A DNA stretch of 64,000 bases, from assembly GCF_014863355.1 (NCBI RefSeq), contig NZ_JACZEP010000012.1, positions 62,001-126,000 of the forward strand. The letters are read 5' to 3'. Source of the DNA: Aminobacter carboxidus (lineage in GTDB: Bacteria; Pseudomonadota; Alphaproteobacteria; Rhizobiales; Rhizobiaceae). A program made the translations under genes and the position numbers. This document shows positions 19,436 to 36,756 of the stretch, in pieces (position 1 is the stretch's first letter; each line of letters opens with the position of its first letter). Under the pieces are notes generated by a model that was not told where the DNA came from, did not search any database, and saw nothing but the letters and a program-made list of their open reading frames with translations.

Positions 19436-19484
19436 TCACCCACGCAGTGCAATTGAACAGAAACTAAAACCGAAGGACAAAACG

Positions 19485-20999: not shown

Positions 21000-21012
21000 G
21001 CACGACGCCAAC

Positions 21013-21078
21013 TGCGGCGAGGCATCGGCCACGCCGCAGCCGCCTGACTTCAAGCGCCGTCCGCATAAGCGGGCGGCG
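21013..21078. terminator. Two hairpins between amaB and amaA
   Basis: TGCGGCG (21013-21019) pairs with CGCCGCA (21032-21038). CGCCGTCCGC (21055-21064) pairs with GCGGGCGGCG (21069-21078), with one G-U pair and an ATAA loop. Neither is followed by a T-run. They may reduce read-through from amaB into amaA or act as Rho-influenced attenuators. Confidence 0.4.
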
Positions 21079-21161
21079 TGCATCTACCTAAGCCAGCCCG
21101 GCGCGAACCTGTTCAAGCCGGGTAGGCCTTCCCCACAACCTGAAGCCACGGACGCCTGCCG

Positions 21162-22792: not shown

Positions 22793-23722
22793 TCAATCCC
22801 TCAGGAGATCGAACATCAGCTTGAAGAAGCGGTCGGCATCGACTTCATAGGCGATCCTGGCGTTGTTTTTCTCGCCACGCTCGCCCCAGAAGTCGGCGAC
22901 CGTCGCGCCGAAGGTATGGGTGCCCGTAAGGTCGACGGCAATGTGGGCCGGGCGGATTTTGACCAATGTCGGATCGATCGCCAGCGCCAGGGCCAGCGGA
23001 TCGTGCATGGCGCCACCAACGCCCATCGAGTTGCGGTGCAGTTTCTCGTAAAACAGCAGCCAGTCGTTGACGAGCTTGCCGAGCGGCGTGTCGATTTTGG
23101 CAAGCTCGGCATACTGCGCTTCCTCGACCAGCACCTGCATGGTGACGTCGAGACCGACCATGAGGATCGGCACGCCGGAATCGAGCACGATCTTCAGCGC
23201 CTCAGGGTCGCAGAAAGCGTTGAACTCGGTTGGCGTGATGATCTCGCTCTTCCGGTAGAAGACGCCGCCCATCCAGATCAGTTCCTTGATCTTGGGCAGC
23301 ACCTCAGGGTGCTTGAGGATCAAGAGACCGATATTGCTGAGCGGACCGGTCGCGACCACCAGGATCGGCTCGGCCGATGCGAGCAACTTCTTGGCGAGGA
23401 AATCGACAGCGTGCTGGTCGACCGGCTTGATGGTTGCCTGCGGCAGATAGGGCGAGCCCTCGAGGCCACTGGGACCATCGGCGGTGCCGAGCACAAGCGG
23501 TCGCGCCAGCGGACGGTGGCAGCCGGCCGCGACCGGCACGGCGCCAGCGCCGATGTATTCGAGAATGCGCAGCGCGTTGGTCGTGGTTTTCTCGAGCTCG
23601 GCATTGCCACAGGTAGTCGTGACGCCGAGCAGTTCGATATCAGGCGAGCGGTGCGCCATGACCAGCGCGATCGCGTCGTCGTGGCCCGGATCGCAGTCGA
23701 AGAGAATGGGTGTAGCTGTCAT
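22793..23722 (-). CDS. Inosine-uridine-preferring nucleoside hydrolase family protein
   Basis: 309 residues from the ATG at 23722 (AAGAG upstream); a GTG at 23737 overlapping the previous stop would add five residues. The N-terminal metal-binding signature is FDCDPGHDDAIA, matching the DxDxGxDD calcium site of nucleoside N-ribohydrolases. Family members cleave the N-glycosidic bond of ribonucleosides to free base and ribose. Downstream of a second, divergent paralogue and a BMP-type ABC transporter, it probably processes the imported nucleoside. Base specificity cannot be read from the sequence. Confidence 0.92.
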   Translation of the reverse strand: MTATPILFDCDPGHDDAIALVMAHRSPDIELLGVTTTCGNAELEKTTTNALRILEYIGAGAVPVAAGCHRPLARPLVLGTADGPSGLEGSPYLPQATIKPVDQHAVDFLAKKLLASAEPILVVATGPLSNIGLLILKHPEVLPKIKELIWMGGVFYRKSEIITPTEFNAFCDPEALKIVLDSGVPILMVGLDVTMQVLVEEAQYAELAKIDTPLGKLVNDWLLFYEKLHRNSMGVGGAMHDPLALALAIDPTLVKIRPAHIAVDLTGTHTFGATVADFWGERGEKNNARIAYEVDADRFFKLMFDLLRD

Positions 23723-23733
23723 GATATCACTCT

Positions 23734-24747
23734 TCACGCTGCCCGCTCGTAGCGCGCGATGGTTTCTTTGAACATTTCGAGGAAGCGGCGACCTTCGAGG
23801 CCGGTGCCTATGCGCGTGGTCTTGGGACCACCGCCGGGCAGGATCTGGAAGCCGCGATAGGCAACCGTCTGGCCACGCGAAACGCTGCCATCGATCAGGA
23901 CGTCGACAAACAGCGGTTCGGTTAGCGTCGCCAGATCTGGGTCGAAGGCCAGCACTACTGTGATGACGTCGTCGAGCGGGAAGCCGACGAGGCCGAAGAA
24001 CTCGCGCCAGATGTCGATGTAGATCGGGAATACATCGGCGATCATGTCGAGAACCGGATTGTCCTTAGCCTTGTCCTGCATGTCGGCGATGTCGTCGCGT
24101 GTCAGCATCGAGGTGGCGACGCGGTTGTCCTCGCAGATATCAAGCGGCACCAGGATCTTGTCGACCTCGGCGTTGAGCACGATGCGCGAGGCCTCGGGAT
24201 CAGCCCAGACGTTGTATTCGGTCACCGGCGTGATGTTGCCGGGCGTGGTGAAGGTGCCGCCGAGCACGATCAAGCGCTTCAGCGCCCCGGCGAGCGCCGG
24301 CTCCTGCAGCAGCGCCATCGCCGCATTGGTCAACGGGCCGGTGGTGACCAGCGTGATCTCACCGGGATTGGCCATGACGGTCTTGATGATGAAATCGACG
24401 GCGTGGCCCGGTGTCGCTTGCCGCTTCGGCTTGGGCGCGGGCGGGTTGAACTTCTTCAGCCGATCGCCGAAGCGGGCGGTGAGCGTTTTTTCGAAATGCA
24501 CAGGCGCTTCCATGGCCGCCTTTGAATGGCCGACGATCGGCCGCCATGCACCGGCATAAACCGGAATGTCGTCGCGGTTGGCAATCGACAGCGTATTGAG
24601 CACGACATTGGTGACCTGCTCGATGGGGCCGGCGGCACCGGTGCAGGTTGTCACCGCCTCGAGCTTCACGTTGGGGTTGGCCGCGGCAAACAGCACGGCG
24701 AGAATATCGTCGCCGGCCGAATCCACGTCGAGAATTATGCGTTCCAT
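23734..24747 (-). CDS. Nucleoside hydrolase family protein (variant metal motif)
   Basis: 337 residues. The N-terminal motif is LDVDSAGDDILA: both aspartates of the DxD and the later DD are kept, but the usual Pro-Gly is replaced by Ser-Ala. The body is otherwise typical of the inosine-uridine hydrolase fold (LVTTGPLTNAAMAL, VLGGTFTTPGNITPVTEYNVWADPEA). It lies 29 bp after the permease gene and its stop lies against the second hydrolase gene. Two different hydrolases in one transporter operon suggest two substrates or a non-standard ribo- or deoxyribonucleoside. Confidence 0.9.
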   Translation of the reverse strand: MERIILDVDSAGDDILAVLFAAANPNVKLEAVTTCTGAAGPIEQVTNVVLNTLSIANRDDIPVYAGAWRPIVGHSKAAMEAPVHFEKTLTARFGDRLKKFNPPAPKPKRQATPGHAVDFIIKTVMANPGEITLVTTGPLTNAAMALLQEPALAGALKRLIVLGGTFTTPGNITPVTEYNVWADPEASRIVLNAEVDKILVPLDICEDNRVATSMLTRDDIADMQDKAKDNPVLDMIADVFPIYIDIWREFFGLVGFPLDDVITVVLAFDPDLATLTEPLFVDVLIDGSVSRGQTVAYRGFQILPGGGPKTTRIGTGLEGRRFLEMFKETIARYERAA

Positions 24748-24776
24748 GCCTTGCTACAGCCCTTCAGCGTGAGAGG

Positions 24777-25751
24777 TTACTTGCCGGTCTCGGCCGGCTT
24801 GTTTTCGACCGAAAGCAGCTTGCGCATGCTCTCCAGGGTCTCGCGGATGATCTTCGGCCGGCTGCGATAAGACAGCGCGAACAGTGCCGTCAGCGCCACC
24901 AGATAAGGCACCGCCAGGATCAGGTAGGACGGAAAGCCGAAGGTCTGGAGGCGTAGCGAAAATGCATCGGCAAAGCCAAACAGCAAACAACCCGCCAGCA
25001 CCTTCAAGGGGCTTCCATTGGAAAAGATCAGGATGGCGACCGCCATGAAGCCTCGGCCCGACGACATGTTTTCGGTGAACATGGTGATGTAGCCGAGCGA
25101 AAGGTGCGCACCGGCAAGCCCGGCGAGCAAACCGCACAACAGCGAGGCAATATAGCGAACGCGCGTGATCGAGATGCCGAGCGCTTCGGCGGCCTCGGGC
25201 TTTTCGCCGACGACGCGGATGTAGAGCCCAAGGCGCGTGCGCTTGTAAAACACCACCAGAAGCGGCACGGCGATGAAGGCGACATAGACCATCGGCGTGA
25301 AGCCGTTGATCAGTGGCGCCCATGACCCCAAAAGATCCCTGGCACCGGGGATCTGCACCTTGGGCAGGCCGACGATGCCCTTGCCGACGATCGAGCCGCG
25401 AGTACCGAAGATCGCCTTCATCAACGAAATGGTCATGCCGCCGGCGAGGATGTTGAGCGCCAAACCCACCACCACTTCATTGGCGCGGAAGCTGACGACC
25501 AGTACGGCGAAGGCGAGCGCGAACACCAGTGCCGCCGCGACACCGCAGGCCACACCGACCAGTGCCGAGCCCGACCAGATCGAGCCGAGCACGGCGAAGA
25601 AGGCGCCGACAAGCATCTGGCCTTCGAGGCCGATATTGAAGATGCCGGCCTTGGTGGTGAACGAGCCGCCGAGCGCGACCAGCAGGATGGGAGCCGTCAT
25701 CCGCAGTGTTGCGACGATCAGCGCGACATTGAAGAGACTTAGAATTTCCAT
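24777..25751 (-). CDS. Nucleoside-type ABC transporter permease (BmpA-associated, second permease)
   Basis: 324 residues with about eight to nine hydrophobic segments. The GIFNIGLEGQMLVGAFFAVLG stretch is diagnostic for the BPD_transp_2 permeases that pair with BMP-family binding proteins (YufQ/NupQ-like). It overlaps the partner permease gene by 13 bp. It forms half of the inner-membrane channel. Confidence 0.93.
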   Translation of the reverse strand: MEILSLFNVALIVATLRMTAPILLVALGGSFTTKAGIFNIGLEGQMLVGAFFAVLGSIWSGSALVGVACGVAAALVFALAFAVLVVSFRANEVVVGLALNILAGGMTISLMKAIFGTRGSIVGKGIVGLPKVQIPGARDLLGSWAPLINGFTPMVYVAFIAVPLLVVFYKRTRLGLYIRVVGEKPEAAEALGISITRVRYIASLLCGLLAGLAGAHLSLGYITMFTENMSSGRGFMAVAILIFSNGSPLKVLAGCLLFGFADAFSLRLQTFGFPSYLILAVPYLVALTALFALSYRSRPKIIRETLESMRKLLSVENKPAETGK

Positions 25752-26779
25752 CGGCGCTCTCCTGCGGTGCTGTCGCCGCGACGCTTCATCAGAACCTGAG
25801 CCGAGACGCTCAGGATGATCAGCGCCTGGATCACCGTGATGATTTCGCGCGAAGCGTTGGTGTCGGTCTCAAGCAGCAGCGAACCGTTGCGCAGCGCGCC
25901 AAAGAACAGCGCCGTCACGATGGTACCGATCGGCGAGCCGTTGGCCAGCAGTGCTGCGATCAGGCCGTCGAAGCCGAAGCCAGGCGCAAAACCTTCCATG
26001 AAGCGGTGGTGTACACCCAGCGTTTCGATGCCGCCGGCAAGACCGCCAACCGCACCCGATGCCAACAGCACCAGGAAACCCTGACGCTTGACATCAATGC
26101 CGCCATATTCGGCGAATTTGGGCGCAGAGCCGACCATCGAGATCGAATAGCCCTTGGCGGTATGGCGGAAGAACCAGGCAACGAAGAGCGCCAGCACCAG
26201 GCCGATGATCAGGCCCCAGTTGAGCCGCGAGAAGGCAAACAGCTCGGGCAGATAGGCGGTTGCCAGTATCGGCGGGGTCTCCGACCATCCGCCGGGCCGC
26301 TTGAACAGGAAGATGGTGAGGTAAGAGGTCAGCAACACCGCGACGTAGTTGGAAAGGATCGTCGAGACGACCTCGTTTGTACCGTAGCGCACGCGGAAGA
26401 AGGCGGGGATCGAAACCCAGGCAGCACCGGCGATCACCGCGACGGCCATAGCGACCACGACGTGCAGGCCGGCGGGCAGCGGCATTGCGAAGCCGACCCA
26501 GGCTGCGGCGAAGCCGCCGAGAAACAGCTGGCCCTCGATGCCGACATTGAACATGCCGCCACGCAAGCCGATGCAGGCGGCAATGCCGCAGATCAGGATG
26601 GGCGTGGTCTGCAACAAGGTGCCGGCGATCTTGGCCTGGTCGCCGAAGGCGCCGCGCATCAAGGTCATGAACACCTTGATGGGGCTCTCGTCGATAAGCA
26701 TGATGATCACGGCACCCATGGCGAGCGCGATCAGAACGGCGACGATCTGGCCGGAGAATGCACGCAATTTGTCGCTCAC
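25739..26779 (-). CDS. Nucleoside-type ABC transporter permease (BmpA-associated, first permease)
   Basis: 346 residues. GMFNVGIEGQLFLGGFAAAWVG and the GFGFDGLIAALLANGSPIG segment mark it as the YufP/NupP-like partner in the BPD_transp_2 family. It starts where the ATPase gene ends, overlapping by 4 bp (26776-26779), so translation is coupled. Confidence 0.93.
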   Translation of the reverse strand: MSDKLRAFSGQIVAVLIALAMGAVIIMLIDESPIKVFMTLMRGAFGDQAKIAGTLLQTTPILICGIAACIGLRGGMFNVGIEGQLFLGGFAAAWVGFAMPLPAGLHVVVAMAVAVIAGAAWVSIPAFFRVRYGTNEVVSTILSNYVAVLLTSYLTIFLFKRPGGWSETPPILATAYLPELFAFSRLNWGLIIGLVLALFVAWFFRHTAKGYSISMVGSAPKFAEYGGIDVKRQGFLVLLASGAVGGLAGGIETLGVHHRFMEGFAPGFGFDGLIAALLANGSPIGTIVTALFFGALRNGSLLLETDTNASREIITVIQALIILSVSAQVLMKRRGDSTAGERRWKF

Positions 26780-28359
26780 GAGGCCACCTCATCGGAAGCA
26801 TTGCCGGGTTGGAGACCTGCCATCATCATGCCGATCCTTTCGCTGTCGGCGCTGTCACCGTCGACCTCACCCATGATCCGGCCGTTGAACATCACCAGGA
26901 TGCGGTCGGCCAAGGTGAGCAGTTCGTCGAGCTGCACCGAAATGACGAGCACGGCCCGGCCCGCTGCACGCTGGCGCATGATCTCGTCGTGGATGGACTC
27001 CTGCGCACCGATATCGACGCCGCGCGTCGGCTGATCGACCAGCAGGAAGTCTGCGTCATTGGTGAATTCGCGCGCCAGCACGACCTTTTGGATATTGCCG
27101 CCCGACAGCCGCTTGACGGTGTCTTCGGGGCCACGGGCGCGGATGTCGAAACGCTTGATCATCTCGACGGCCTGGTTGGCTGCCGCACGCCAGTCGAGGA
27201 CGCCGTTGCGGCTCCACGGCGCCTTGAACTGCCGGCCCATCAGCAAATTGGAGGAGATCGAGGCGCTGCCATCGACGCCGCGTACCAATCGGTCGCCGGG
27301 CACGTGGGCAAGACCGGTTTGGCGGATTGCGGAAGTCGAGAGCGTGGTCAGATCGCTGTCTTTGAGCAGCGCCGAACCGTGGCTTGCCGGACGCAGGCCC
27401 GACAGAACTTCGGCAAGCTCGGTCTGGCCGTTTCCTGCGACACCGGCGATACCGACGATCTCGCCAGAGCGCACCGTGAAGCTCGCGTCACGCAAAGCCG
27501 GCAGATGTCGGTCGTCACGCGCCCACAGGTTCTTGACCTCCAGGACGACCTTGCCGCCGGTCTTGTCGCGCGGACGCCGGTCAAAGCTAACATCGCGCCC
27601 AACCATCATGCGCACCATGTCGGCCTTGGTCAGCTCGGCCGTCGGTTGCGTCGCGACATGCTTGCCATGGCGCAGCACGGTCACGGTGTCTGAAACCTCC
27701 ATCACCTCTTCGAGATGATGCGAGATGAAGATGACGGTCATGCCGCCGGCAACGAAGCCGCGCAGCGTCTGGAACAGCTCGCGGCTTTCCTGCGGAGTTA
27801 GCACCGCGGTCGGCTCGTCGAGAATGATGGTGCGAGCACCGCGCGCCAGCACCTTCAGGATTTCGATGCGTTGCTCGATGCCGACCGAGAGCAGCGAAAC
27901 CCGCTCCTCCGGGTCAACCTTGAGGCCGAAGCGCTCGGAAAGCTCGCGCGTCTTTTCGACCTGGGCCCTGTGGTCGATCAGGCCGTTGCGGCGGATTTCC
28001 ATACCGAGGAAGACGTTGTCGGCGACAGACAGCGAAGGCACCAGCTTGAAGTGCTGGTGCACCATGCCAAGGCCGGCATCGATCGCAGTCGCCGGGTCGG
28101 TGACGACTGTTTCCTTGCCGTTGAGCACGATCTTGCCTTCATCGGGCTGCAGCAAGCCAAACAGGATGTTCATCAGCGTTGTCTTGCCAGCGCCGTTCTC
28201 GCCGATGATGGCGTGGATCTCGCCGCGTTTGACGCTGAGACTGACGTCTTCATTGGCAACGAAAGCGCCGAAACGCTTGGTGACACCGATCAATTCAACA
28301 GCAGTTTCGGCAGGACCTGCCTCTCGTGCCGTCATGGCTGGCGACGTGGTCGACAACAT
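26776..28359 (-). CDS. Nucleoside-type ABC transporter double ATP-binding protein
   Basis: 527 residues with two ABC cassettes in tandem (YufO/NupO, RbsA-like). The first has Walker A GENGAGKTT, followed by ILDEPTAVLTPQE. The second has a degenerate Walker A (GVAGNGQTEL) but intact LSGGNIQKVVLAREF and LVDQPTRGVD, the normal asymmetry of this family. Start may be 28359 or the ATG at 28335. It powers import through the two following permeases. Confidence 0.94.
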   Translation of the reverse strand: MLSTTSPAMTAREAGPAETAVELIGVTKRFGAFVANEDVSLSVKRGEIHAIIGENGAGKTTLMNILFGLLQPDEGKIVLNGKETVVTDPATAIDAGLGMVHQHFKLVPSLSVADNVFLGMEIRRNGLIDHRAQVEKTRELSERFGLKVDPEERVSLLSVGIEQRIEILKVLARGARTIILDEPTAVLTPQESRELFQTLRGFVAGGMTVIFISHHLEEVMEVSDTVTVLRHGKHVATQPTAELTKADMVRMMVGRDVSFDRRPRDKTGGKVVLEVKNLWARDDRHLPALRDASFTVRSGEIVGIAGVAGNGQTELAEVLSGLRPASHGSALLKDSDLTTLSTSAIRQTGLAHVPGDRLVRGVDGSASISSNLLMGRQFKAPWSRNGVLDWRAAANQAVEMIKRFDIRARGPEDTVKRLSGGNIQKVVLAREFTNDADFLLVDQPTRGVDIGAQESIHDEIMRQRAAGRAVLVISVQLDELLTLADRILVMFNGRIMGEVDGDSADSERIGMMMAGLQPGNASDEVAS

Positions 28360-28435
28360 AGCCTCGCAGCTTCAGACCTATCCGCCCTGCTCTCAAGGGC
28401 GAATACATCTCTAACCTAGTCCTGGAAGAAATGAT

Positions 28436-28463
28436 GCCGGAAGCCGGTATGCCAGCTTCCGGC
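28436..28463. repeat. Intra-operon hairpin after the binding-protein gene
   Basis: GCCGGAAGC (28436-28444) pairs perfectly with GCTTCCGGC (28455-28463), loop 10. It lies 13 bases past the BMP protein stop, before the ATPase gene. Such hairpins often protect the binding-protein message from 3' decay and lower downstream expression. No T-run follows on the transcribed strand. Confidence 0.5.
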
Positions 28464-28476
28464 CGGGGGCCGTGCC

Positions 28477-29484
28477 TTACTTGGCGCGGTCGATCTTGAT
28501 CGAGCCGTCGGTGATGCCCTTCTTGATCTCGTCGAGCTTGGCAGTCACCTCTGCCGGGATGGAAGGTGCGATGTCGTCGCAGACCTTCACTTCGACGCCA
28601 CCCGAGGCCAGATCGAAGGTGTGAGTGCTGCCGGCAACCACCTTGTTGCCCTCGACTTCGCTCTTGATCAGGCTGTAGACGGCGACGTCACCGCGCTTCA
28701 GCATCGAGGCGAGCACGTTGCCCGGTGCAGAACTGCACATGTCGATGTCGACGCCGATCGAATATTTGTCGGCGCCAGCGCTCGCCTGCATGACGCCTTC
28801 GCCCGTCGGCCCGGCCACGTTGTAGATGATGTCGGCGCCCTGGCCGTAGAGCGCAAGCGCCAGTTCGCTGCCCTTGGCCGGATCATCGAAGGTGCCGGCA
28901 AAGACCGAGTTCACCTTCACCTCGGGCGCCGCATATTTCGCGCCCTGCTCATAGCCGCCAAGGAAGTTGCGGATAACAGGGATATCGCGGCCGCCGACGA
29001 AGCCGATGGCCTTGCCGTCGCCGATCTTGTCGAAGGCGCTGCCCTGGTTTTCGATCATGCCGGCAAGCGCACCGGCGACGAACGAGCCCTGCTCTTCGGC
29101 GAAGTTGGCATAGACGATCTTTTTCGAATCGAGCACGCCGTCGATGAATACGAAGCGCTGGTTGGGATAAGCTTCGCTGGCCTTGGTCAGCGCATCCACC
29201 AGTTCCCAGCCCATCACAAAGATCAGGTCGTACTGGCCATCCTTTGCGAGGTTGGCGAACTGCTCTTCATAGTCGAGTGCTCGATTGCCGGTGTCGACCA
29301 GCTTGAGATCGATACCGAATTCGCCCTTGGCCTTGTTCAAGCCATCGACGATCGAGATGCCGAAGCCCTGGGCGAAATAACCAGAGATTGCCGCGACAGA
29401 GACCTTGTCCTGGCCTGTGGCCGAACCCACCGAGGCTACAAGGGCCGCGCCAGCGATAATGCAATTACGGAATACGTTCTTCAT
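28477..29484 (-). CDS. BMP family ABC transporter substrate-binding protein
   Basis: 335 residues from the ATG at 29484 with GGGGAG upstream; an in-frame start at 29559 lacks a site. An N-terminal hydrophobic signal ends near an ATGQ cleavage region, and no clear lipobox cysteine follows, so the protein is probably soluble in the periplasm. The mature part matches the Bmp/Med family (GYFAQGFGISIVDGLNKAKG, FVMGWELVDALTKA, IGFVGGRDIPVIRNFLGGYEQGAKY). BMP proteins characterised so far bind nucleosides such as guanosine or adenosine. It is the first gene of a six-gene minus-strand operon ending with two nucleoside hydrolases. Confidence 0.93.
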   Translation of the reverse strand: MKNVFRNCIIAGAALVASVGSATGQDKVSVAAISGYFAQGFGISIVDGLNKAKGEFGIDLKLVDTGNRALDYEEQFANLAKDGQYDLIFVMGWELVDALTKASEAYPNQRFVFIDGVLDSKKIVYANFAEEQGSFVAGALAGMIENQGSAFDKIGDGKAIGFVGGRDIPVIRNFLGGYEQGAKYAAPEVKVNSVFAGTFDDPAKGSELALALYGQGADIIYNVAGPTGEGVMQASAGADKYSIGVDIDMCSSAPGNVLASMLKRGDVAVYSLIKSEVEGNKVVAGSTHTFDLASGGVEVKVCDDIAPSIPAEVTAKLDEIKKGITDGSIKIDRAK

Positions 29485-29545
29485 CTCAACTCCCCAATCT
29501 GAAGCCCTGTCACCAGCCGTAGGGCTCATCCTCGATGGCCAAAAC

Positions 29546-29583
29546 TTGTTGGTGGTCATATGACTTTATGGGTGGTCCTACGA
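29546..29583. promoter_or_regulatory. Operator-like repeats in BMP / DUF1185 divergent promoter
   Basis: TTGTTGGTGGTCATA (29546-29560) is followed exactly 20 bp later by GGTGGTCCTACGA (29571-29583). The first 15 bases recur identically upstream of the isochorismatase gene (33531-33545), and a close inverted copy precedes the epimerase gene (33692-33709). TGGTCCTACGA (29573-29583) fits the TNGTNNNACNA consensus of FadR-type GntR regulators; TGGTCATATGA (29553-29563) is one base off. These are candidate operators for a common regulator. Confidence 0.55.
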
Positions 29584-29730
29584 ACTGTCAATTGGCCTGC
29601 GAGCGCTCGAACAACGCAGCGAACAATCACGACAGCTGCGGTTTCACACCTCCGGCTTGACAAAAATGCCGGAAGGATAATTGTTGATACTCTAACAAGT
29701 TTTCAGCCCGCCAGAAATGTGGAGCATTCG

Positions 29731-30315
29731 ATGCCGGACGTAGTCGTCAGGAAATTGATCGTGCAGATCGAAGAGATTTTTCATGAGGGCGGGCCGGTGC
29801 GTGCCGAGCCGGTCAAGCGCGGCACTGTGATGGCAGTCATCGCCAATCCGTATGCCGGCCGCTATGTCGAGGATATCCAGCCTTTCATGGAAGATCTGAA
29901 GCCGCTCGGCCTCGAAATGGCGTCCCGCCTGCTTGAAGCACTCGGCGGCGACGCCTCACTGGTCGAAGGCTATGGCAAAGGCTCCATCGTCGGCGGCGGC
30001 GGCGAACTCGAGCACGGCGCGCTGTGGCACAATCCGGGTGGCTACGCGATGCGCGAACTGCTGGGCGGCGCCAAGGCCATCGTGCCGTCGAGCAAGAAGG
30101 TCGGCGGACCCGGTGCCCGCATCGACATTCCCGTCACCCACGTCAACGCCTCCTATGTGCGCAGCCATTTTGATGCCATCGAGGTCGGCATCAACGACGC
30201 GCCGCGCAGCAACGAGTTGGTGCTCGTCCTGGCCATGACCACCGGTTCGCGCGTGCATGCCCGCGTCGGCGGCCTTGACGCCAAGGACGTCAAGGGCGAG
30301 GACGGCTTGCGATGA
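29731..30315 (+). CDS. DUF1185 (amino acid synthesis family) protein, first copy
   Basis: 194 residues from the ATG at 29731 (GTGGAG upstream); the frame is open further upstream without a usable site. Motifs shared with the next protein are NPYAG near residue 38, GELEH, PSSKKVGGPG and VRSHFDAIEVGINDAPR, all typical of PF06684. The Pfam name suggests amino-acid synthesis, but I know of no established reaction for the family. It is divergent from the BMP transporter operon and shares its operator region, and its stop overlaps the second copy as ATGA. Confidence 0.88.
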   Translation: MPDVVVRKLIVQIEEIFHEGGPVRAEPVKRGTVMAVIANPYAGRYVEDIQPFMEDLKPLGLEMASRLLEALGGDASLVEGYGKGSIVGGGGELEHGALWHNPGGYAMRELLGGAKAIVPSSKKVGGPGARIDIPVTHVNASYVRSHFDAIEVGINDAPRSNELVLVLAMTTGSRVHARVGGLDAKDVKGEDGLR

Positions 30316-30896
30316 GTGTCGAAATCCGACGAATTATCACCATCGTCGAAGAGACGCGGACCGAAGGCGACAAGGCGGTCAGCCCGCCAACGCGTCGTGC
30401 CGCAGCGGTCGCGGTCATCCGCAATCCCTATGCCGGCACCTTCGTCGACGACCTCGCCATGCTCAGCGAGATCGGTGCCGAGCTTGGCGACATTCTGCCC
30501 CGCCGCGCAGTGGCCGCACTGGGTATTCCGGGCGACCAGGTCGAGAGCTTCGGCAAGGCCGCCGCCGTCGGTGCCGATGGCGAGTTGGAACATGCAGCAG
30601 CAATCCTCCACCCAAAGCTCGGCGCACCGTTCCGCGACATACTCGGCAAGGGTGCCGCGCTGATCCCGTCTTCCAAGAAGCGTGGTGGCCTAGGCATCCC
30701 TCTCGACATTCCATTGGGCCATAAGGACGCCGCCAAGGTGCGCAGCCACTTCGATGGCATGGAGGTGCGCATTCCCGACGCGCCACGCGACGATGAGATC
30801 GTCGTGGCGATCGCGGTCACCGATTCGGGTCGCCCCCATCCACGCGTCGGCGGCCTCACCAAGGACAAGGTCGTCGGTATCGACGGCATGAACTGA
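30312..30896 (+). CDS. DUF1185 (amino acid synthesis family) protein, second copy
   Basis: 194 residues, the same length as its neighbour, and starting inside that gene's stop codon. It keeps the family motifs NPYAG, GELEH, PSSKKRGGLG, DIP..H and VRSHFDGMEVRIPDAPR, but overall identity with the first copy looks moderate. This fits an old duplication with divergence into different roles or a hetero-oligomer. It is followed at once by a strong terminator. Function unknown. Confidence 0.88.
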   Translation: MSVEIRRIITIVEETRTEGDKAVSPPTRRAAAVAVIRNPYAGTFVDDLAMLSEIGAELGDILPRRAVAALGIPGDQVESFGKAAAVGADGELEHAAAILHPKLGAPFRDILGKGAALIPSSKKRGGLGIPLDIPLGHKDAAKVRSHFDGMEVRIPDAPRDDEIVVAIAVTDSGRPHPRVGGLTKDKVVGIDGMN

Positions 30897-30900
30897 AAAT

Positions 30901-30930
30901 GAAAAAGCGGCTCGCCAGAGCCGCTTTTTC
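30901..30930. terminator. Bidirectional rho-independent terminator
   Basis: GAAAAAGCGGCTC (30901-30913), loop GCCA, GAGCCGCTTTTTC (30918-30930): a perfect 13-bp stem with A and T flanks on both sides. It ends the DUF1185 operon and also the convergent enamidase operon. Confidence 0.9.
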
Positions 30931-30947
30931 ATAGGCGTCTTCCTGAA

Positions 30948-32147
30948 TCAGGCCGTAATGATCTGAGGCACGCGAATAGCTGGCGGTGTGTTGCGGCTGC
31001 GTGCCGTGCGGACGACGCCGTCGACCATGATCATGCCGATGCCTGGCAGGTTGCCGAGTGCAAGGCTCTCCAGGAAATCCTTGCCGATGCCGCCTGCTGC
31101 CTGGTCCATGAACACCAGATCAGCGGCGCGACCGGCCTCAATGATGCCGCGGTCGTCGAGCTTGCGCACGCGCGCCGTATTGCCGGTCGCGAAACAGAAG
31201 GCGACTTCCGTAGGTACGTCGCCGAGCGAGGCAAGGTGGCAGATGGTCCTGAGGATGCCGAGCGGCTGTACGCCGGACCCTGCCGGACCGTCAGTGCCAA
31301 GAATGACGCGGTCGAGGATGTTGCGGTCCTTGGCAATGCCGAGCACGAACAGGCCGGTGCGCAGGTTGCCATTGTGGACGATCTCGAGGGCGCGCGTGCT
31401 TTCCTCGCATAAGCGACGGATCTCTTCGTCGGGCAGCGCCGTTGGGCCGCCGTTGATATGGGCCACCACGTCGGCATCGACTTCCAGCACGACGTCGGCG
31501 CCGATGCGCCCCGAGCCCGGGATCGACGGACCGCCGGTATGGGTCATCGACGTCATGCCGTATTTGCGCGCCCAGGCGATCATCTGGCGGCCGGTAGGGC
31601 CGTCCTTGACACCACCAAGCCCGACCTCGCCGATCAACGTCACGCCGGCGTCGGCCAGCTCACGAAAATCGTTCTCGGTCATTTCAGGCTCGAGCACCGG
31701 GGCACCGGCGATGATCTTCATGCCGCTCGGGCGGAAATTGGCGAAGCTGCGCTGGGCGGCGATGGCGAGCGCCTTGATGCCGATGATGTCCTTCGGTCGG
31801 CCCGGGTAATGCGCCTCGCCGGCGGAGATCATGGTGGTTACGCCGCCATGCAGTGTCGAATCGATCCAGCCAATCTGGTTCTGGCGCGGCGTCCAGTCGC
31901 CGGCCACCGGGTGGACGTGATTATCGATGAGACCAGGGGTAACAACGCAACCCTGCGCATCGATGACACTCGTCGCACCAGCGAGATCAAGATCGGTGGC
32001 CATACCGACTGCAGCGATGCGGCCATCCAGGACAATGATTGCATCAGCATCGAGAACCGGTCGGGCGAGATCGCCGCTCAGCATCAGGCCGACGTTGCGG
32101 ATGACGAGCTTGTCTGCGGTGATCTTGTGTTGCTGTTCAGGCGACAT
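30948..32147 (-). CDS. Enamidase-like binuclear amidohydrolase
   Basis: 399 residues, ATG at 32147 behind AAGGAA. An amidohydrolase barrel with metal ligands in place: H77 and H79 (DNHVH), E174 (GEVGLGG), H203 (HTGG), H230 (HING) and D286 (GTDGP). Long stretches recall the Eubacterium barkeri enamidase, which hydrolyses 6-oxo-tetrahydronicotinate to 2-formylglutarate: TLHGGVTTMISAGEAHYPGRP, HTGGPSIPGS, HINGGPTA, PLGILR and the C-terminal SRNTPPA. A ring-opening hydrolysis of a cyclic enamide/lactam is therefore the best guess. It is cytoplasmic, third in an operon after an isochorismatase-like gene and a MarR gene. Its true substrate may differ from the nicotinate intermediate. Confidence 0.82.
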   Translation of the reverse strand: MSPEQQHKITADKLVIRNVGLMLSGDLARPVLDADAIIVLDGRIAAVGMATDLDLAGATSVIDAQGCVVTPGLIDNHVHPVAGDWTPRQNQIGWIDSTLHGGVTTMISAGEAHYPGRPKDIIGIKALAIAAQRSFANFRPSGMKIIAGAPVLEPEMTENDFRELADAGVTLIGEVGLGGVKDGPTGRQMIAWARKYGMTSMTHTGGPSIPGSGRIGADVVLEVDADVVAHINGGPTALPDEEIRRLCEESTRALEIVHNGNLRTGLFVLGIAKDRNILDRVILGTDGPAGSGVQPLGILRTICHLASLGDVPTEVAFCFATGNTARVRKLDDRGIIEAGRAADLVFMDQAAGGIGKDFLESLALGNLPGIGMIMVDGVVRTARSRNTPPAIRVPQIITA

Positions 32148-32255
32148 CGGTGGAATTCCTTGCGTCTCGGTAGGGCATGAGGCGGCCGACCCGGCTCATG
32201 GCCGGCGATCGGTCGTTTCGGACAATGTCTGTTGAAGGGTTGTTAGGTCAGCCTG

Positions 32256-32798
32256 TCATTTGCCTTCGGCGCCGCCTGGTTCGTCGCCGCTGATGCGCTG
32301 CAGCAGCCTCAGCAGCGTCGCTTGTTCAGGCGCAGTCAGAGGCGAAAGCAGTTTCTGGCCAACCTCGACGCTGCGTTCCAGCCGATCGAGCGTGTAGCGT
32401 GTGCCTTCGTCGGTGAGTGCGATGATCGCGAGCCGCTGGTCGGTCTGCGAAGGGCTGCGCTTGATCAAGCCCTGTTTCAAAAGCTTGCGGACCACCAGGC
32501 TGATGGTCGAGGGGTCCATCGCCGTCATGCGGCCGAGGTGGTTCTGCGAAACCTCGCCGTGCTTGAGCACCGTTGCCAGGGCCGCGAACTGCGTCGGTGA
32601 CAAATCCTCGCCGGCCATAACCTGCTGAAAGCACAAGGTAGCGCGCTGATGGGCGCGGCGTACGACGTGTGCTGGGTGGACGTCCAGGTCATAACCGGTC
32701 TTGGTATATCGGGTCATTATCTCTTCGCGGCTCAGCGGCTCATCGACCGCCTCTGCCGCCTTACGCTTGAATTTGTGGGCTTCGTCGAGGGTTGTCAC
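32256..32798 (-). CDS. MarR family transcriptional regulator
   Basis: 180 residues from a GTG at 32798 with AGGAG upstream; an internal ATG at 32717 is an alternative. A winged HTH occupies residues ~65-130 (LSPTQFAALATVLKHGEVSQ, then MTAMDPSTISLVVRKLLKQGLI and a DQR wing). Some MarR proteins, such as NicR, repress N-heterocycle catabolic genes and are released by an aromatic acid. Its position between the isochorismatase-like and enamidase-like genes suggests control of this locus. Confidence 0.9.
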   Translation of the reverse strand: MTTLDEAHKFKRKAAEAVDEPLSREEIMTRYTKTGYDLDVHPAHVVRRAHQRATLCFQQVMAGEDLSPTQFAALATVLKHGEVSQNHLGRMTAMDPSTISLVVRKLLKQGLIKRSPSQTDQRLAIIALTDEGTRYTLDRLERSVEVGQKLLSPLTAPEQATLLRLLQRISGDEPGGAEGK

Positions 32799-32848
32799 GG
32801 CGCTTCCAACTCCTGGCTTGAAACCTGAGATTTCGCCGACCCCAGAGG

Positions 32849-33493
32849 CTATGCGGCGATGCTTGTGTTCTCGATGAAGGCACCTTCGCGAAGGGCCCTC
32901 ACCACGCTGTCGGCATCGCAGACGACGCCGAAATGGGTCGAGATGTCGTAGAGCGTGCTTTCCTGCTCGCGCGGCCCGGTGGCTGCACAGCAGTCGGCAG
33001 GCACGACGACTTCGTAGCCGTTGAAGAATGCGTCATGCACGGTCGAACGCACGCAGATGTTGGTGACCACGCCGAAGACAATGATCTGGTCGACCAGCAT
33101 ATCCTTCAGCGTCATGTCGAGATCGGTCTGGAAGAACGACGAATAACGCCGCTTGATGACGTGGATCTCGTCGTTGCGGGCGCCGAGATCATCGATGACG
33201 TCAGTGCCCCAGGTGCCTTCGACGCAATGCGGAGCGCGTTTGAGCCACTCACGGTCGCGGCGCATGTTGCGGCGATGTGCATCATGCACCCAGATCACAG
33301 GCGCACCGGCGGCGCGTGCCGCCTCGATAACACTCAATTGCGGAGTGACAAGTGCCTCGTAACCCGGCAGCACCATGGCGCCACCCGGTTTGCAGAAGTC
33401 GTTGATCATGTCGACGACGATGATCGCTACACGCGCTGGATCGATCTTGATCCCGGCGTCCTGGCGATGAGACGAAAAGCTGTCCAATGGCAC
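32849..33493 (-). CDS. Isochorismatase-family cysteine hydrolase
   Basis: 214 residues from a GTG at 33493, preceded by AGGAGG at good spacing. The catalytic triad of the family is D28 (IIVVDMINDF), K114 (VIKRRYS) and C147 (TNICVRST), with the usual cis-peptide VVTN before it. Members hydrolyse amides or N-carbamoyl compounds: nicotinamidase, N-carbamoylsarcosine amidase, ureidoacrylate hydrolase, maleamate amidase. First gene of the operon that continues with MarR and the enamidase-like enzyme, so it may act on the linear amide produced by ring opening, or on a nicotinamide-like precursor. Confidence 0.9.
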   Translation of the reverse strand: MPLDSFSSHRQDAGIKIDPARVAIIVVDMINDFCKPGGAMVLPGYEALVTPQLSVIEAARAAGAPVIWVHDAHRRNMRRDREWLKRAPHCVEGTWGTDVIDDLGARNDEIHVIKRRYSSFFQTDLDMTLKDMLVDQIIVFGVVTNICVRSTVHDAFFNGYEVVVPADCCAATGPREQESTLYDISTHFGVVCDADSVVRALREGAFIENTSIAA

Positions 33494-33530
33494 GACCTTA
33501 CCTCCTCAGCGAGTTGCCGATTGTTGGTGG

Positions 33531-33548
33531 TCATACAAAAAACCGTGA
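33531..33548. promoter_or_regulatory. Shared operator motif upstream of isochorismatase operon
   Basis: TTGTTGGTGGTCATA (33531-33545) is identical to 29546-29560. TGGTCATACAA (33538-33548) fits TNGTNNNACNA exactly. The site lies about 40-55 bases upstream of the GTG start at 33493, a sensible repressor position. Confidence 0.55.
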
Positions 33549-33691
33549 CGGCTTCCAAGTCAATCCTTGCGCTGTCGCTTGTCACAATATGGCGGGTCAC
33601 GGCATCTTGCCATCCGGCTGGCGGCCATGACGGGCGCTTATCCACGGCCGCAAGAAAGGCATTGACAAGCAGGGCTGTTTGCGTTGTCCGA

Positions 33692-33709
33692 TTGTTTGAC
33701 CATCAACGA
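33692..33709. promoter_or_regulatory. Shared operator motif upstream of epimerase/SDR operon (inverted)
   Basis: Read on the minus strand, this 18-mer is TCGTTGATGGTCAAACAA, matching 15 of 18 positions with the site at 33531. TTGTTTGACCA (33692-33702) is a perfect TNGTNNNACNA element in reverse. It lies 44 bp before the epimerase start. Confidence 0.5.
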
Positions 33710-33752
33710 TATTTGCCAAGTAGACGCACGTGATCGCCAACAGGAGGCCGAG

Positions 33753-34592
33753 ATGAAAATCGTCATTACCGGATCGAGTGGCCTGCTTGGCCGCCACGTC
33801 GCGGCAGCCATTGTTGCTGCCGGCCACGACGTTCTCGGCATTGACGCCGTCGTCCCGGCCGACGGCAATTGGGCGCACGTAAGTGCCGACCTCACCGATC
33901 TCGGCGTGGCGCTGCAGCTCATTCGCGATTGCGACGCTGTCGTCCACATCGCGGCGATCCCGCGACCGCTCGGCAAGGCGCCGGCAGAGGTGTTCAAGAC
34001 CAATGTGGCGATTGCCTACAACGTCGTTGAAGCAGCAGCCCTTTCGCAGGCCAGACGCTTCATCTACGCCTCGTCCTTCAGCGTGCTCGGCTATCCCTTC
34101 GCCGAAAACTTCGTCGACCCGGCCTATCTGCCCATCGATCACAACCACCCGATCGGCGCGCAGGACGCCTATGGCCTGTCGAAATGGCTGGGTGAGGAAA
34201 TTGTCGAAGCCGCCGTTCGCCGGCGCGCCTTTTCGGCCGTCAGCCTGCGCATGCCATGGATCCAGACACCGGAGAGCTTCTTCGACAGCATAGGCCCACG
34301 CCGCGAACTCGCCGAAGCGGCTCGCGACCTGTGGAGCTATCTCGACGCGCGCGACGCTGCCGATGCCTTCATCAAGGCGTTGGACTGGCGAGGCGATGGC
34401 CATGTGCGCACCTACCTCAGCGCCGCCGATACCTACTCGAAACAGATCACCGAAGAGCTCGTCCGGCGCGCCTTCCCGGCAACGCCGATCACGCGCCCGA
34501 TTTCGGGACATGAAGCAATCATCGACAATACGCATGCGCTGGAAACGCTCGGCTTTGCGCCGCGTCATTCCTGGCGCGACTACGGCAATTGA
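33753..34592 (+). CDS. NAD(P)-dependent epimerase/dehydratase-like oxidoreductase
   Basis: 279 residues from the ATG at 33753 with AGGAGG upstream. Extended SDR fold: nucleotide-binding GSSGLLGRH at residues ~7-15, a DAVVHIAAIPRP segment, and the YGLSK catalytic pair after an ASSFSVLG serine region. Such enzymes act on sugars, sugar acids (uronate dehydrogenase-like) or nucleotide sugars. With the following SDR it forms a two-gene operon sharing the motif found at the transporter and enamidase operons, so it might process the sugar or lactone part released by the nucleoside hydrolases. That role is inferred. Confidence 0.87.
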   Translation: MKIVITGSSGLLGRHVAAAIVAAGHDVLGIDAVVPADGNWAHVSADLTDLGVALQLIRDCDAVVHIAAIPRPLGKAPAEVFKTNVAIAYNVVEAAALSQARRFIYASSFSVLGYPFAENFVDPAYLPIDHNHPIGAQDAYGLSKWLGEEIVEAAVRRRAFSAVSLRMPWIQTPESFFDSIGPRRELAEAARDLWSYLDARDAADAFIKALDWRGDGHVRTYLSAADTYSKQITEELVRRAFPATPITRPISGHEAIIDNTHALETLGFAPRHSWRDYGN

Positions 34593-34606
34593 GGCAGGAG
34601 ACCGAC

Positions 34607-35422
34607 ATGAAGCGTTTCGACAACAAGGTGGTTCTTGTCACCGGCGGCGCTGGGGCGATCGGCAGTGCGGCCGTGCGCAGGTTCATCGATGAAGGTGCAC
34701 GTGTGTCGGTCGTCGATCTCGACGGCGCGCGCGCGGCACAGGTCGCATCGGCATTCGGCGACACGGCCCTTGCCATCACCGCAGATGTTTCCGACGCGGC
34801 AGCGGCGCAACAGGCCGTTGCAAAGACTGTCGAAGCGTTTGGCCAACTCGACGCTGTGTTCAACAACGCCGGCATATCCGGCAAGGTAGCGCCGGTCCAT
34901 GAACTGCCTGTCGAAGAATGGGACCTCATCGTGCGGATCAATCTGCGCAGCATGTTCCTGGTGCTCCAGGCCGCACTCAAGGCGATGATCGCTGCCGGCA
35001 CCGAAGGCTCGATCGTCAACATGGGCTCATCGATGGCCGGCTGGGACGTATTGTCAGGTGGCGCGGGTTACGCCTCGACCAAGCATGGCGTGATTGGCCT
35101 CACCCGTGTCGCAGCACTTGACGCCGCCGCCTACGGCATCCGTGTCAACGCCATCTGTCCTGGCGTCATCGAGACCACTCTCGGCGTTCCGGCCAATGAT
35201 CGCGCAGCCTATGCCGCTGGAATCCAGCGCTTTGCCGACCGCATTCCGCTGCGCCGCATCGGCCAGCCAGAGGACGTCGCAGCGGCAGTCGCCTTCCTGG
35301 CATCGGACGAGGCGCGCCACATCACCGGCGTCGACTGGCTTATGGACGGCGGACAGACGCTGCAGAGCTTCGCCAATGCGCCCGATGCGGGCGCCTATCC
35401 GCGCCACCACAGGCCCAACTGA
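34607..35422 (+). CDS. Classical short-chain dehydrogenase/reductase
   Basis: 271 residues from the ATG at 34607 (AGGAG upstream), 14 bp after the epimerase stop. It has TGGAGAIG cofactor binding, NNAG, the catalytic serine in NMGSSMAGWD and the YASTK pair, then the ICPGVIET loop. An acidic residue after the second strand (VVDLDG) favours NAD+ over NADP+. It probably oxidises a sugar or hydroxy-acid intermediate of the neighbouring pathway. Confidence 0.9.
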   Translation: MKRFDNKVVLVTGGAGAIGSAAVRRFIDEGARVSVVDLDGARAAQVASAFGDTALAITADVSDAAAAQQAVAKTVEAFGQLDAVFNNAGISGKVAPVHELPVEEWDLIVRINLRSMFLVLQAALKAMIAAGTEGSIVNMGSSMAGWDVLSGGAGYASTKHGVIGLTRVAALDAAAYGIRVNAICPGVIETTLGVPANDRAAYAAGIQRFADRIPLRRIGQPEDVAAAVAFLASDEARHITGVDWLMDGGQTLQSFANAPDAGAYPRHHRPN

Positions 35423-35554: not shown

Positions 35555-35968
35555 TCACTTTTCAACATAACGGCCAAAGTTACTCAGGATCGCCTGCCAG
35601 CCGTCGCGTTGCATGTCGATGGAATTCTGCGTCTCCGCATCGAACATGGTGGTCACCCTTGTGCCATTGTCGGCGGCTTCGAAGGTCGTACGCGCCTTGC
35701 GACCGTCGCTCATGGCTAATGTGATGACCTTGTATGGTTCGACCTCTTCGTACACTGCCTCGAAATCGAACCCGAAGCTGCCGTCCTTGGCTTCCATCCG
35801 CGCCTTGTAGACACCGCCTACCTTCAGGTCGGCTTCGGCGCTGGGGCAACACCAGTCGTCGGAAGCGAAGTTCCACTGCGTGATATCAGCGGGTGTCGTA
35901 TAGGCCTCCCAGACGCGCTCGATCGGCGCAGCAATCGTGGTGGCGATGGTGATCTGCTGGATGGTCAC
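35555..35968 (-). CDS. SRPBCC (AHSA1-like) protein
   Basis: 137 residues from a GTG at 35968 with GAGGAA upstream; a longer frame to 36049 would overlap the preceding gene. It is an activator-of-Hsp90-ATPase-like START-fold protein: IAAPIERVWEAYTTPADITQW at the N terminus, a GGVYKARMEAKDGSFGFDF centre and a DGWQAILSNFGRYVE C terminus. The hydrophobic cavity binds an unknown ligand. Second gene of a two-gene set with another SRPBCC protein; a toxin/stress or polyketide-like role cannot be told apart. Confidence 0.85.
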   Translation of the reverse strand: MTIQQITIATTIAAPIERVWEAYTTPADITQWNFASDDWCCPSAEADLKVGGVYKARMEAKDGSFGFDFEAVYEEVEPYKVITLAMSDGRKARTTFEAADNGTRVTTMFDAETQNSIDMQRDGWQAILSNFGRYVEK

Positions 35969-36014
35969 TTTTGAATTCCTCGTTGTCGCAGTTGGATGAG
36001 ATTTCGCCGGCAGT

Positions 36015-36458
36015 TCATTGTGTGATTTCGGGTTCGACGAGTTTAGCAAGCTTGCGCAGCGACTCTTGCCAACCGAGGTAGCATGCCTCGACAGGGATCA
36101 GATCGGGCACGTTTTCCTGAACCACCGTCATCTCCGTTCCGACTGAGACAGCCCTCAGCGTGACTGTCACTTTCATCTCGCCCGGAAGGTTCGGATCGTC
36201 GAACACGTCGCTATAGACGAGCGTCTCGTTGGGAACGAGTTTCAGATAAGTGCCGCCGAAAGAATGGCCTTGCCCGGTGGTGAAGTTTCGGAACGACATT
36301 CTGTGCTTGCCCCCTTGCCTCGCATCAAGCTCATGGACCGTACAGGTAAAGCCGAAGGGCGGGAGCCAACTCGCAATCGCGTCAGGTTCCAGAAATGCGC
36401 GGTAGATCTTTTCGGGTTTCGTGGCGAAGACCCGGTGCAATTTGATGGTGTTGGGCAT
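36015..36458 (-). CDS. SRPBCC (AHSA1-like) protein
   Basis: 147 residues from the ATG at 36458, directly behind GGAGGTGAAC. It has the family N terminus HRVFATKPEKIYRAFLEPDAIASWLPP and the C-terminal CYLGWQESLRKLAKLV. It precedes the second SRPBCC gene by 46 bp, and the two are probably co-transcribed. Function unknown beyond ligand binding. Confidence 0.85.
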   Translation of the reverse strand: MPNTIKLHRVFATKPEKIYRAFLEPDAIASWLPPFGFTCTVHELDARQGGKHRMSFRNFTTGQGHSFGGTYLKLVPNETLVYSDVFDDPNLPGEMKVTVTLRAVSVGTEMTVVQENVPDLIPVEACYLGWQESLRKLAKLVEPEITQ

Positions 36459-36756
36459 GTTCACCTCCATTCATTGATCTCCCCTAGGACGAACGACCAG
36501 TGCGTCTCCCGACAACCGACCTCAATTTTTTGCCCGAGCCTTCTCGCAGGCGCACAAGATCGCAGTGTTCTTGAAGCTGACTGGCAATGTCGAGGATTTG
36601 GCTCCGGCTTTGCCCGATCCAGCATGCCTGCTTCGGACAACCGCAAAACTGACAGGCAACGGACAGTCGGCTTTGAGTGCACGGCGAGGCAAATGCCGCC
36701 GTCCGGCTATCCAGAATATAGTTGAAGCATACGAATTGTTATCTAGAAGGACGTCT
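36459..36756. other. 298-bp gap, nothing recognisable
   Basis: Less GC-rich than its surroundings. I find no open frame with coding character or homology I recognise, and no clear terminator. It holds the promoter of the SRPBCC pair and the 3' region of rsgA. Confidence 0.5.

Follow-up and report, generated by a model that had tools for sequence, protein, structure and literature searches.

A MarR-linked regulon of Aminobacter carboxidus that may serve the breakdown of N-glycosides with a tetrahydronicotinamide ring

The DNA considered here, called the window throughout, is a stretch of 64,000 nucleotides from the 6.29 Mb genome of Aminobacter carboxidus (contig NZ_JACZEP010000012.1, positions 62,001 to 126,000). 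It holds a cluster of 13 genes, all found at the coordinates given below, that may form a MarR-controlled regulon for the uptake and breakdown of an N-glycoside with a nicotinamide-like ring. By strand and spacing, the genes fall into four operons. The first, on the minus strand, runs from a BMP/PnrA-type substrate-binding protein (28477..29481) through an ABC ATPase with tandem domains (26776..28359) and two BPD_transp_2 permeases (permease 2, 25739..26779; permease 1, 24777..25751) to two nucleoside hydrolases of the PF01156 family, the divergent NH2 (23734..24747) and NH1 (22793..23737), which has RihA as its closest solved relative. The second, also on the minus strand, encodes the isochorismatase-like cysteine amidohydrolase ISO (32849..33493), a MarR-family regulator (32256..32798) and the enamidase-like amidohydrolase ENA (30948..32147), which is the putative ring-opening enzyme. 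The two plus strand operons encode the PF06684 proteins DUF1185-a (29731..30315, 194 amino acids after start correction) and DUF1185-b (30312..30896), and the NAD-dependent epimerase-family oxidoreductase EPI (33753..34592) followed by the oxidoreductase SDR (34607..35422). The arrangement creates two divergent promoter regions, BMP/DUF1185 and ISO/EPI. The convergent genes for DUF1185-b and ENA are separated by a terminator-like hairpin with A/T runs (30901..30930), recognized by reading the sequence.

The genes listed in an earlier note on this DNA are real: PF01156 (twice), BPD_transp_2 (twice), the ATPase, Bmp, PF06684 (twice), the enamidase, MarR, ISO, the epimerase and SDR were all confirmed, with domain matches as the basis for the permeases, the ATPase, MarR, ISO, EPI and SDR, and Pfam and PDB matches for both hydrolases. 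Four over-extended open reading frame starts were corrected by reading the sequence and by comparison with relatives. The BMP gene ends at 29481 instead of 29559, DUF1185-a starts at 29731 instead of 29560, SDR starts at 34607 instead of 34589, and the start of EPI was set at 33753, in a region where a longer minus strand frame (33597-34568) has no Pfam match. The Bmp substrate-binding domain scores 187 bits against a threshold of 24. Lbp, BmpD and TmpC are the closest relatives of the protein, a putative component of a nucleoside importer.

The 15-mer TTGTTGGTGGTCATA occurs exactly at positions 29546 and 33521 of the window. Forty distinct upstream sites from related loci, picked by a fixed 11-bp core, yield the consensus ATTGTwwGACCAyCAAyrAT, a pseudo-palindrome in which the core columns follow from the selection and only those beside the core provide independent evidence. 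The EPI-SDR operon is preceded by a site without mismatches to this 20-bp consensus (33691..33710, plus strand), and the ISO-MarR-ENA operon by a site with one mismatch (33520..33539, minus strand). Two operator-like sites on the minus strand lie in the BMP/DUF1185 divergent promoter. One shares 15 identical bp with the ISO site and has two mismatches to a shorter pattern (29546..29563), and the other, upstream of DUF1185-a, has three mismatches to the full pattern (29680-29699) and two to the shorter one (29681..29698). None of 100 shuffles of the window reaches three matches. Across 11 whole genomes, all 26 sites with at most one mismatch are located in promoters of pathway genes, namely BMP, DUF1185-a, ISO, EPI, a sugar-transport operon and GCDH, and the reversed-pattern control gave no site. 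GCDH denotes a glutaryl-CoA-dehydrogenase-like protein, so labelled from its acyl-CoA dehydrogenase domains and from reading the sequence. Judged from these sites, a predicted operator is common to the promoters of all four operons, and the operons form one regulon.

The cluster's MarR is likely the regulator that acts at the operator, because the two co-occur. Among 111 loci, a site with at most three mismatches is present in all 25 loci that have a MarR at least 54% identical, versus 4 of the 86 others, and three of these four are unlinked NH operons of Kaistia-like genomes. (L038 repeats L050 and L040 repeats L113; both are still counted here, among the 88 long ENA loci and in the counts of gene content.) A GntR/FadR-type operator (TNGTNNNACNA) was also considered. 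The idea was dropped, though not disproved, because MarR adjoins ISO at locus after locus, whereas GntR-like genes were seen by eye in the flanks of few loci (L047, L172, L235); at its full length of 20 bp, the motif forms the pseudo-palindrome ATTGT-N10-AC(A/G)AT, which accompanies MarR. Outside the cluster, an operator-like site with two mismatches is kept in two congeners (G000:C10:63249-63266, L229; G002:C1:2017617, L218), where it lies upstream of an ABC substrate-binding protein that looks PotD-like by eye.

The genome sample consisted of 397 genomes of a single order, and counts are therefore not independent of descent. Presence was called at E<=1e-60 for ENA and for the 6-hydroxynicotinate reductase HnaR, E<=1e-40 for ISO, E<=1e-90 for NH1 and E<=1e-70 for SDR; the scan of genome contigs covered the best 80 of 259 relatives. 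ENA is present in 78 genomes, ISO in 19 and NH1 in 17. ISO always lies within 8 kb of an ENA on the same contig (19/19). All 17 NH1 genomes have both ISO and ENA, with NH1 in the same cluster in 12 and elsewhere in 5; the hypergeometric probability for 17 of 17 among the 78 ENA genomes is 2e-13, uncorrected for shared descent. SDR was found under 25 of 27 genome handles, and no NH-cluster genome searched is without it; the two exceptions, G306 and G143, carry ISO but no NH1. Two of the handles are duplicates, in that G065 and G066 have the same coordinates as G144 and G175 and denote the same genomes. Synteny is complete in four of nine genomes of the same genus, in four named Mesorhizobium loci and in Xaviernesmea oryzae, while Kaistia soli and a metagenome-assembled genome named 'Bosea' have a single run, BMP-ATP-perm-perm-NH2-NH1-ISO-MarR-ENA, beside DUF1185b-a.

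A chance neighbourhood is ruled out by the co-occurrence, the rearranged gene orders and the shared operator. The view of the earlier note that the four operons serve one pathway is thus borne out as far as the regulon is concerned, by co-occurrence, synteny in other genera and the common operator; that note had named a failure of the operons to co-occur in other genomes as its refutation, and the search found co-occurrence instead. Since the NH operon is located elsewhere on the genome in five Kaistia-like genomes, one could also think of nucleoside salvage by one operon and a route from the lactam 6-oxo-1,4,5,6-tetrahydronicotinate (THON) to glutarate as distinct pathways, with nothing in common but a regulator and a neighbourhood. 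This appears improbable, as the three unlinked NH operons that were fetched (L168, L176, L180) bear the operator (at most three mismatches), the co-occurrence of NH1, ISO and ENA stays at 17/17, and some genomes have the single BMP-to-ENA run.

ENA is a true enamidase homologue, judging from sequence comparison. Enamidase 2vun is the one PDB entry that it matches at E 1e-30 or better (388 bits, E 3.7e-115, single sequence), and in a profile search 2vun scores 494 bits, compared with 46 for the next PDB chain. Of the 383 residues aligned with 2vun, 185 are identical, and 100 of the 383 columns, among them HxH and the other putative metal ligands (H67, H69, E164, H193, H220 and D276, an inferred assignment), are shared by 2vun and at least 98% of the ENA set. 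Judged by ENA, in a comparison of the best 80 of 259 relatives, the nearest named relatives of this genome belong to Mesorhizobium. In a tree of 103 ENA sequences that left out L038, L040 and L044, the 19 NH-linked rows need four changes (bootstrap 2-4; shuffled mean 17.9), and 13 of them share one fully supported clade; the Kaistia-like rows are not placed by the tree, and the support values are rough, since the bootstrap had not settled. In the genome G132, both contexts occur together: NH genes accompany one of its ENAs, and HnaR accompanies another. The enamidase reaction acts on THON, the lactam of the HnaR pathway, according to passages of PMC7356986.

HnaR, named from plasmid annotations, has no Pfam or NCBIfam match at E 0.001. 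ENA is often accompanied by HnaR outside the NH clusters: among 88 long ENA loci, 45 contain HnaR and 31 a nicotinate-hydroxylase-like enzyme. Passages of PMC3511419 describe such enamidase-bearing nicotinate clusters with HnaR for Bradyrhizobiaceae and Azorhizobium. A. carboxidus itself has a nicotinate cluster away from the NH cluster (G000:C28:198000-217900, L044), with a nicotinamidase that passes the NF008623 cut-off (210 bits), nicotinate-hydroxylase subunits, the HnaR of this genome, UPF0280, DUF1185-a, MarR, an aldehyde dehydrogenase, a ferredoxin reductase and, in place of an enamidase, the hydantoinase/oxoprolinase pair HyuA/HyuB. UPF0280, which is weakly ApbE-like, occurs in 42 of 91 clustered loci and adjoins HnaR in four of nine inspected (L088, L096, L099, L044); it may be a helper of nicotinate enzymes. 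An in-frame TGA in HnaR of several genomes turned out, in the only one checked (L127), to be a normal stop at the end of the alignment.

The same exchange of ENA for HyuAB is seen among the NH clusters. The NH cluster is also present on plasmids of Sinorhizobium medicae and Rhizobium rhododendri (NH1 67% identical, seven records, two fetched), with HyuA/HyuB beside DUF1185, and no ENA was found in the fetched plasmid stretches (the chromosomes were not searched). HyuB has a 73% match in S. medicae, and the C28 pair is 67-68% (HyuA) and 75% (HyuB) identical to the NH-cluster pair. HyuA was found in 7 of the 11 fetched HnaR loci without ENA (L044, L237, L238, L240, L241, L243, L244); no HyuA of 50% identity or more turned up in 105 ENA loci, and the match in L100 is at 32%. 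All four combinations of HnaR or NH genes with ENA or HyuAB therefore exist. The swap in both cluster types is a strong argument that ENA and HyuAB open the same lactam, predicted to be THON, and that both pathways meet at this intermediate. In S. medicae ml29, SDR and the ABC ATPase are each annotated in two pieces (L234:6527-7334 and 9576-10953), so that this NH cluster may be decaying.

If THON is the common intermediate, it matters how the ring reaches this level. One candidate substrate is ordinary nicotinamide riboside or nicotinic acid riboside, from which a nucleoside hydrolase would free nicotinamide, ISO would make nicotinate, and the hydroxylase and HnaR would produce THON. A. carboxidus could do so with its C28 cluster (PncA, hydroxylase subunits, HnaR, DUF1185-a, HyuAB), and ISO adjoins nicotinate genes in G306 and L099. 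The distribution of HnaR makes this unlikely. Of the 78 ENA genomes, 58 contain the reductase, 53 out of 61 without NH1 as against 5 out of 17 with it (Fisher p 1e-5). Among genomes with ENAs of about 60% identity or more, HnaR is missing from 12 of 17 with NH1 and from 2 of 52 others (p 5e-8), and the 12 HnaR-less NH1 genomes are given as 98-100% complete. It was not found in Xaviernesmea and M. soli, and neither HnaR nor nicotinate-hydroxylase genes occur in any of 24 NH1 loci. Since 12 of 17 NH1 genomes lack HnaR, the ring probably arrives in reduced form; the pattern argues with moderate force for import at the tetrahydro level, as a riboside of reduced nicotinamide.

The lower end of the route is indicated by the operator. 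In Kaistia soli (G144) and G270, it lies about 60-70 bp before an operon for GCDH and a CoA-transferase (CoAT), about 62 kb and 450 kb away from the cluster, so that in these Kaistia-like genomes the predicted regulon extends to glutarate and glutaryl-CoA. GCDH and CoAT adjoin ENA and DUF1185 in L167, L177 and L181, and the best model for the CoA-transferase beside ENA in L099 is succinate--glutarate CoA-transferase (517 of 750 bits, below the cut-off). The CoA-transferase of A. carboxidus is unlinked, and no operator with five or fewer mismatches was found in 20 kb. The glutarate route reported for Azorhizobium in passages of PMC3511419 agrees with this end of the regulon.

The C5 product makes ordinary catabolism of pyrimidine or dihydropyrimidine nucleosides such as uridine or dihydrouridine, with an enamidase-like ring hydrolase, very improbable, even though the entry enzymes resemble pyrimidine enzymes. 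Uracil carbon ends in C3 units, and the regulon includes a glutaryl-CoA-dehydrogenase-like gene. The best PDB matches of NH1 and NH2 are the pyrimidine ribonucleoside hydrolases RihA/RihB, and the closest named NCBIfam models of ISO are RutB and a biuret hydrolase, but both proteins fall far short of the equivalog cut-offs (NH1, 262 of 433 bits for RihA; ISO, 113 of 378 bits for RutB); ISO is also below the PncA cut-off of NF008623 (56 of 174 bits). In addition, HyuAB takes the slot of ENA in nicotinate clusters too. The suggestion of the earlier note that an N-ribosylated heterocycle is degraded therefore holds for a nicotinate-like ring, to which the enamidase and the links to HnaR clusters point, and fails for a pyrimidine-like nucleoside in view of GCDH, the glutarate-type CoA-transferase and the C5 product.

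The DUF1185 pair would act between 2-formylglutarate and glutarate, because ENA is expected to yield the former and the regulon resumes at the latter; the chemistry is assigned by elimination. Hydrolytic loss of formate is preferred, since it needs the fewest enzymes and the aldehyde dehydrogenase of the C28 cluster is absent from all 24 NH1 loci. The DUF1185 relative TgnF stimulates an aldehyde-oxidation step in trigonelline breakdown, and HcdD is without measurable effect, according to passages of PMC7913881. Both window proteins score 242 bits with PF06684 (gathering threshold 27). The AlphaFold model of DUF1185-b (pLDDT 84.7) has only two DUF1185 structures (3byq, 2qtp) as convincing Foldseek matches. 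A role as a ring hydrolase, like that of cyanuric acid hydrolase, was considered and found unsupported, with the cyclic amide hydrolase 5hy4 matching only at E 0.1. As far as passages of PMC2954203 and PMC7913881 go, the family has solved structures and no established function.

Taken together, we hold, with slightly more confidence than doubt, that the cluster is a MarR-controlled regulon for the uptake and breakdown of an N-glycoside, most likely an N-riboside, with a tetrahydronicotinamide ring. The glycoside would be imported by the BMP-type ABC transporter, NH1 and NH2 would remove the ribose, and ISO would hydrolyse the carboxamide. If the ring enters in the 6-hydroxy (hydrated) form, SDR or EPI would have to oxidise C6 to the lactam, which is the weakest link of the scheme. 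ENA would then open THON to 2-formylglutarate and ammonia, and DUF1185a/b would lead 2-formylglutarate towards glutarate, preferably by loss of formate, or else by decarboxylation to glutarate semialdehyde. The CoA-transferase and glutaryl-CoA dehydrogenase would finally convert glutarate to glutaryl-CoA and crotonyl-CoA. The logic of the earlier note, import followed by N-glycoside cleavage, amide hydrolysis and enamidase-type ring opening, is supported by the gene families and the regulon.

SDR and EPI may handle the sugar instead. A sugar-type ABC importer operon that also encodes IolE-like and Gfo/Idh proteins follows the same operator in Kaistia-like genomes, G132 and Xaviernesmea, and EPI-SDR belongs to it where the fetched stretch extends that far. 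In Kaistia soli, a third gene of the nucleoside hydrolase family (L212:5531-6583) lies within the sugar-transport operon that leads to EPI and SDR. The presence of SDR, with its unallocated role, in each NH-cluster genome searched, and of a Gfo/Idh oxidoreductase and an IolE-like protein in Kaistia-type regulons, could also be taken to mean that the importer takes up an oxidised riboside, such as that of a pyridone, and that one of these enzymes, or EPI, reduces its ring to the level of THON. This appears quite unlikely, since pyridone ring reduction in the known pathway is carried out by an Fe-S type reductase, and alcohols and ketones are the usual substrates of SDR and Gfo/Idh enzymes.

Several observations weigh against the import of a reduced ring and the route that would follow from it. 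A natural 6-oxo-tetrahydronicotinamide riboside is named in no paper or tool result that we found, NH1 is closest to pyrimidine ribohydrolases, and 5 of the 17 NH1 genomes do carry HnaR. At 15 positions that are conserved otherwise, the ENAs of the main NH clade deviate from those linked to HnaR. ISO is found without NH1 at the same locus in L099, L165 (G306) and L166 (G143), and in the first two it adjoins nicotinate genes. With respect to the operator, at up to two mismatches in six genomes 20 of 28 sites lie in the cluster and 8 outside (control 3), G009 has one site with a single mismatch outside the cluster, and the S. medicae locus L234 has no site at four or fewer mismatches. HyuA is lacking in 4 of the 11 HnaR loci without ENA, namely L236 and L239, which a contig end truncates, and L210 and L242, within 19.9 kb. 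ISO, present in 21 of 24 NH1 loci, may correspond in function to the PncA of HnaR loci without ENA; the parallel is limited, because PncA is found in 10 of these 11 loci but in only 3 of 52 with HnaR and ENA, which weakens it as a general counterpart of ISO. The DUF1185 pair is not strictly required either: among the 72 loci in which the sequence extends 8 kb or more to either side of ENA, 44 have the tandem, 15 DUF1185-b alone, and 13 no DUF1185 in reach. In the nine HyuA-bearing loci, there is DUF1185-a only in seven, both proteins in R. rhododendri, and none in L244. Finally, the aldehyde dehydrogenase adjoins HnaR and DUF1185-a in 7 of the 11 HnaR loci without ENA, all of Mesorhizobium type, so that decarboxylation and aldehyde oxidation are favoured there.

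It is tempting to go one step further. Passages of PMC5938422 state that NAD(P)H hydrates carry a 6-hydroxy-1,4,5,6-tetrahydronicotinamide ring. The regulon might therefore serve the catabolism of damaged NAD(P)H, from hydrate or 6-oxo-tetrahydronicotinamide ribosides to glutarate, with DUF1185 as a 2-formylglutarate deformylase or decarboxylase both here and in the reductive nicotinate pathway. We consider this combined proposal possible but doubtful. With regard to NAD(P)H damage, the same passages discuss only repair enzymes. The findings suggest that bacteria have a dedicated route to eat glycosides of reduced nicotinamide rings, which might drain NAD(P)H damage products from the environment. 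They also turn a vague neighbourhood into a predicted regulon that has its own operator, in which THON is the likely central intermediate and glutarate the probable end product, and thereby give DUF1185 a precise and cheap functional test.

The flanks of the cluster contain genes of other kinds. At 18014-22457, a piperidine-6-carboxylate dehydrogenase (above the NCBIfam cut-off), an L-pipecolate oxidase-like protein and a GlcD-like FAD enzyme adjoin each other, and probably belong to lysine/pipecolate catabolism. Downstream of SDR lie two neighbouring AHSA1-domain genes with a slight overlap (35555-36470) and an RsgA-like GTPase (36757-37899), in which the RsgA domain begins only at about residue 136, so that either the start is placed too far upstream or a long N-terminal portion is left unexplained. 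An Rfam scan of 18000-40000 gave a tRNA as its sole match.

The components of the cluster have known counterparts. NH1 and NH2 share the PF01156 family and the best PDB matches with the pyrimidine ribonucleoside hydrolases RihA/RihB, but NH1 is well under the RihA equivalog cut-off, and both are set in another pathway. The DUF1185 proteins share family and fold with BB2672 (3byq) and SPO0826 (2qtp); passages of PMC2954203 propose a role in amino-acid metabolism, whereas here the tandem pair is tied to enamidase or HyuAB and to glutarate. ENA resembles the enamidase of E. barkeri (PDB 2vun) in nearly half of the aligned residues and in the invariant putative metal ligands, and differs from it in its nucleoside-linked rather than HnaR-linked context and in the clade-specific positions. 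HyuAB, of a protein family unrelated to ENA, is not found in the window and takes the enamidase slot in the NH clusters of S. medicae and R. rhododendri and in Mesorhizobium nicotinate clusters.

The closest known system is the reductive nicotinate pathway of Eubacterium barkeri, Azorhizobium caulinodans and Bradyrhizobiaceae SG-6C. The claim of the earlier note that no described pathway has this set of genes does not stand for the enamidase-DUF1185 half, which belongs to this known pathway as nicotinate clusters in passages of PMC3511419 show; it stands for the nucleoside-type entry that would bypass HnaR, of which no earlier description was found in the open-licence literature. Compared with the pathway in those passages, the window cluster shares an enamidase orthologue, DUF1185 proteins, which are nearby in many loci, MarR and, judging from Kaistia-like relatives, a predicted glutarate end. 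It lacks HnaR, which is absent from 12 of the 17 genomes with NH1, and the nicotinate hydroxylase, and it adds a BMP importer, NH1 and NH2, ISO, EPI, SDR and an operator of its own.

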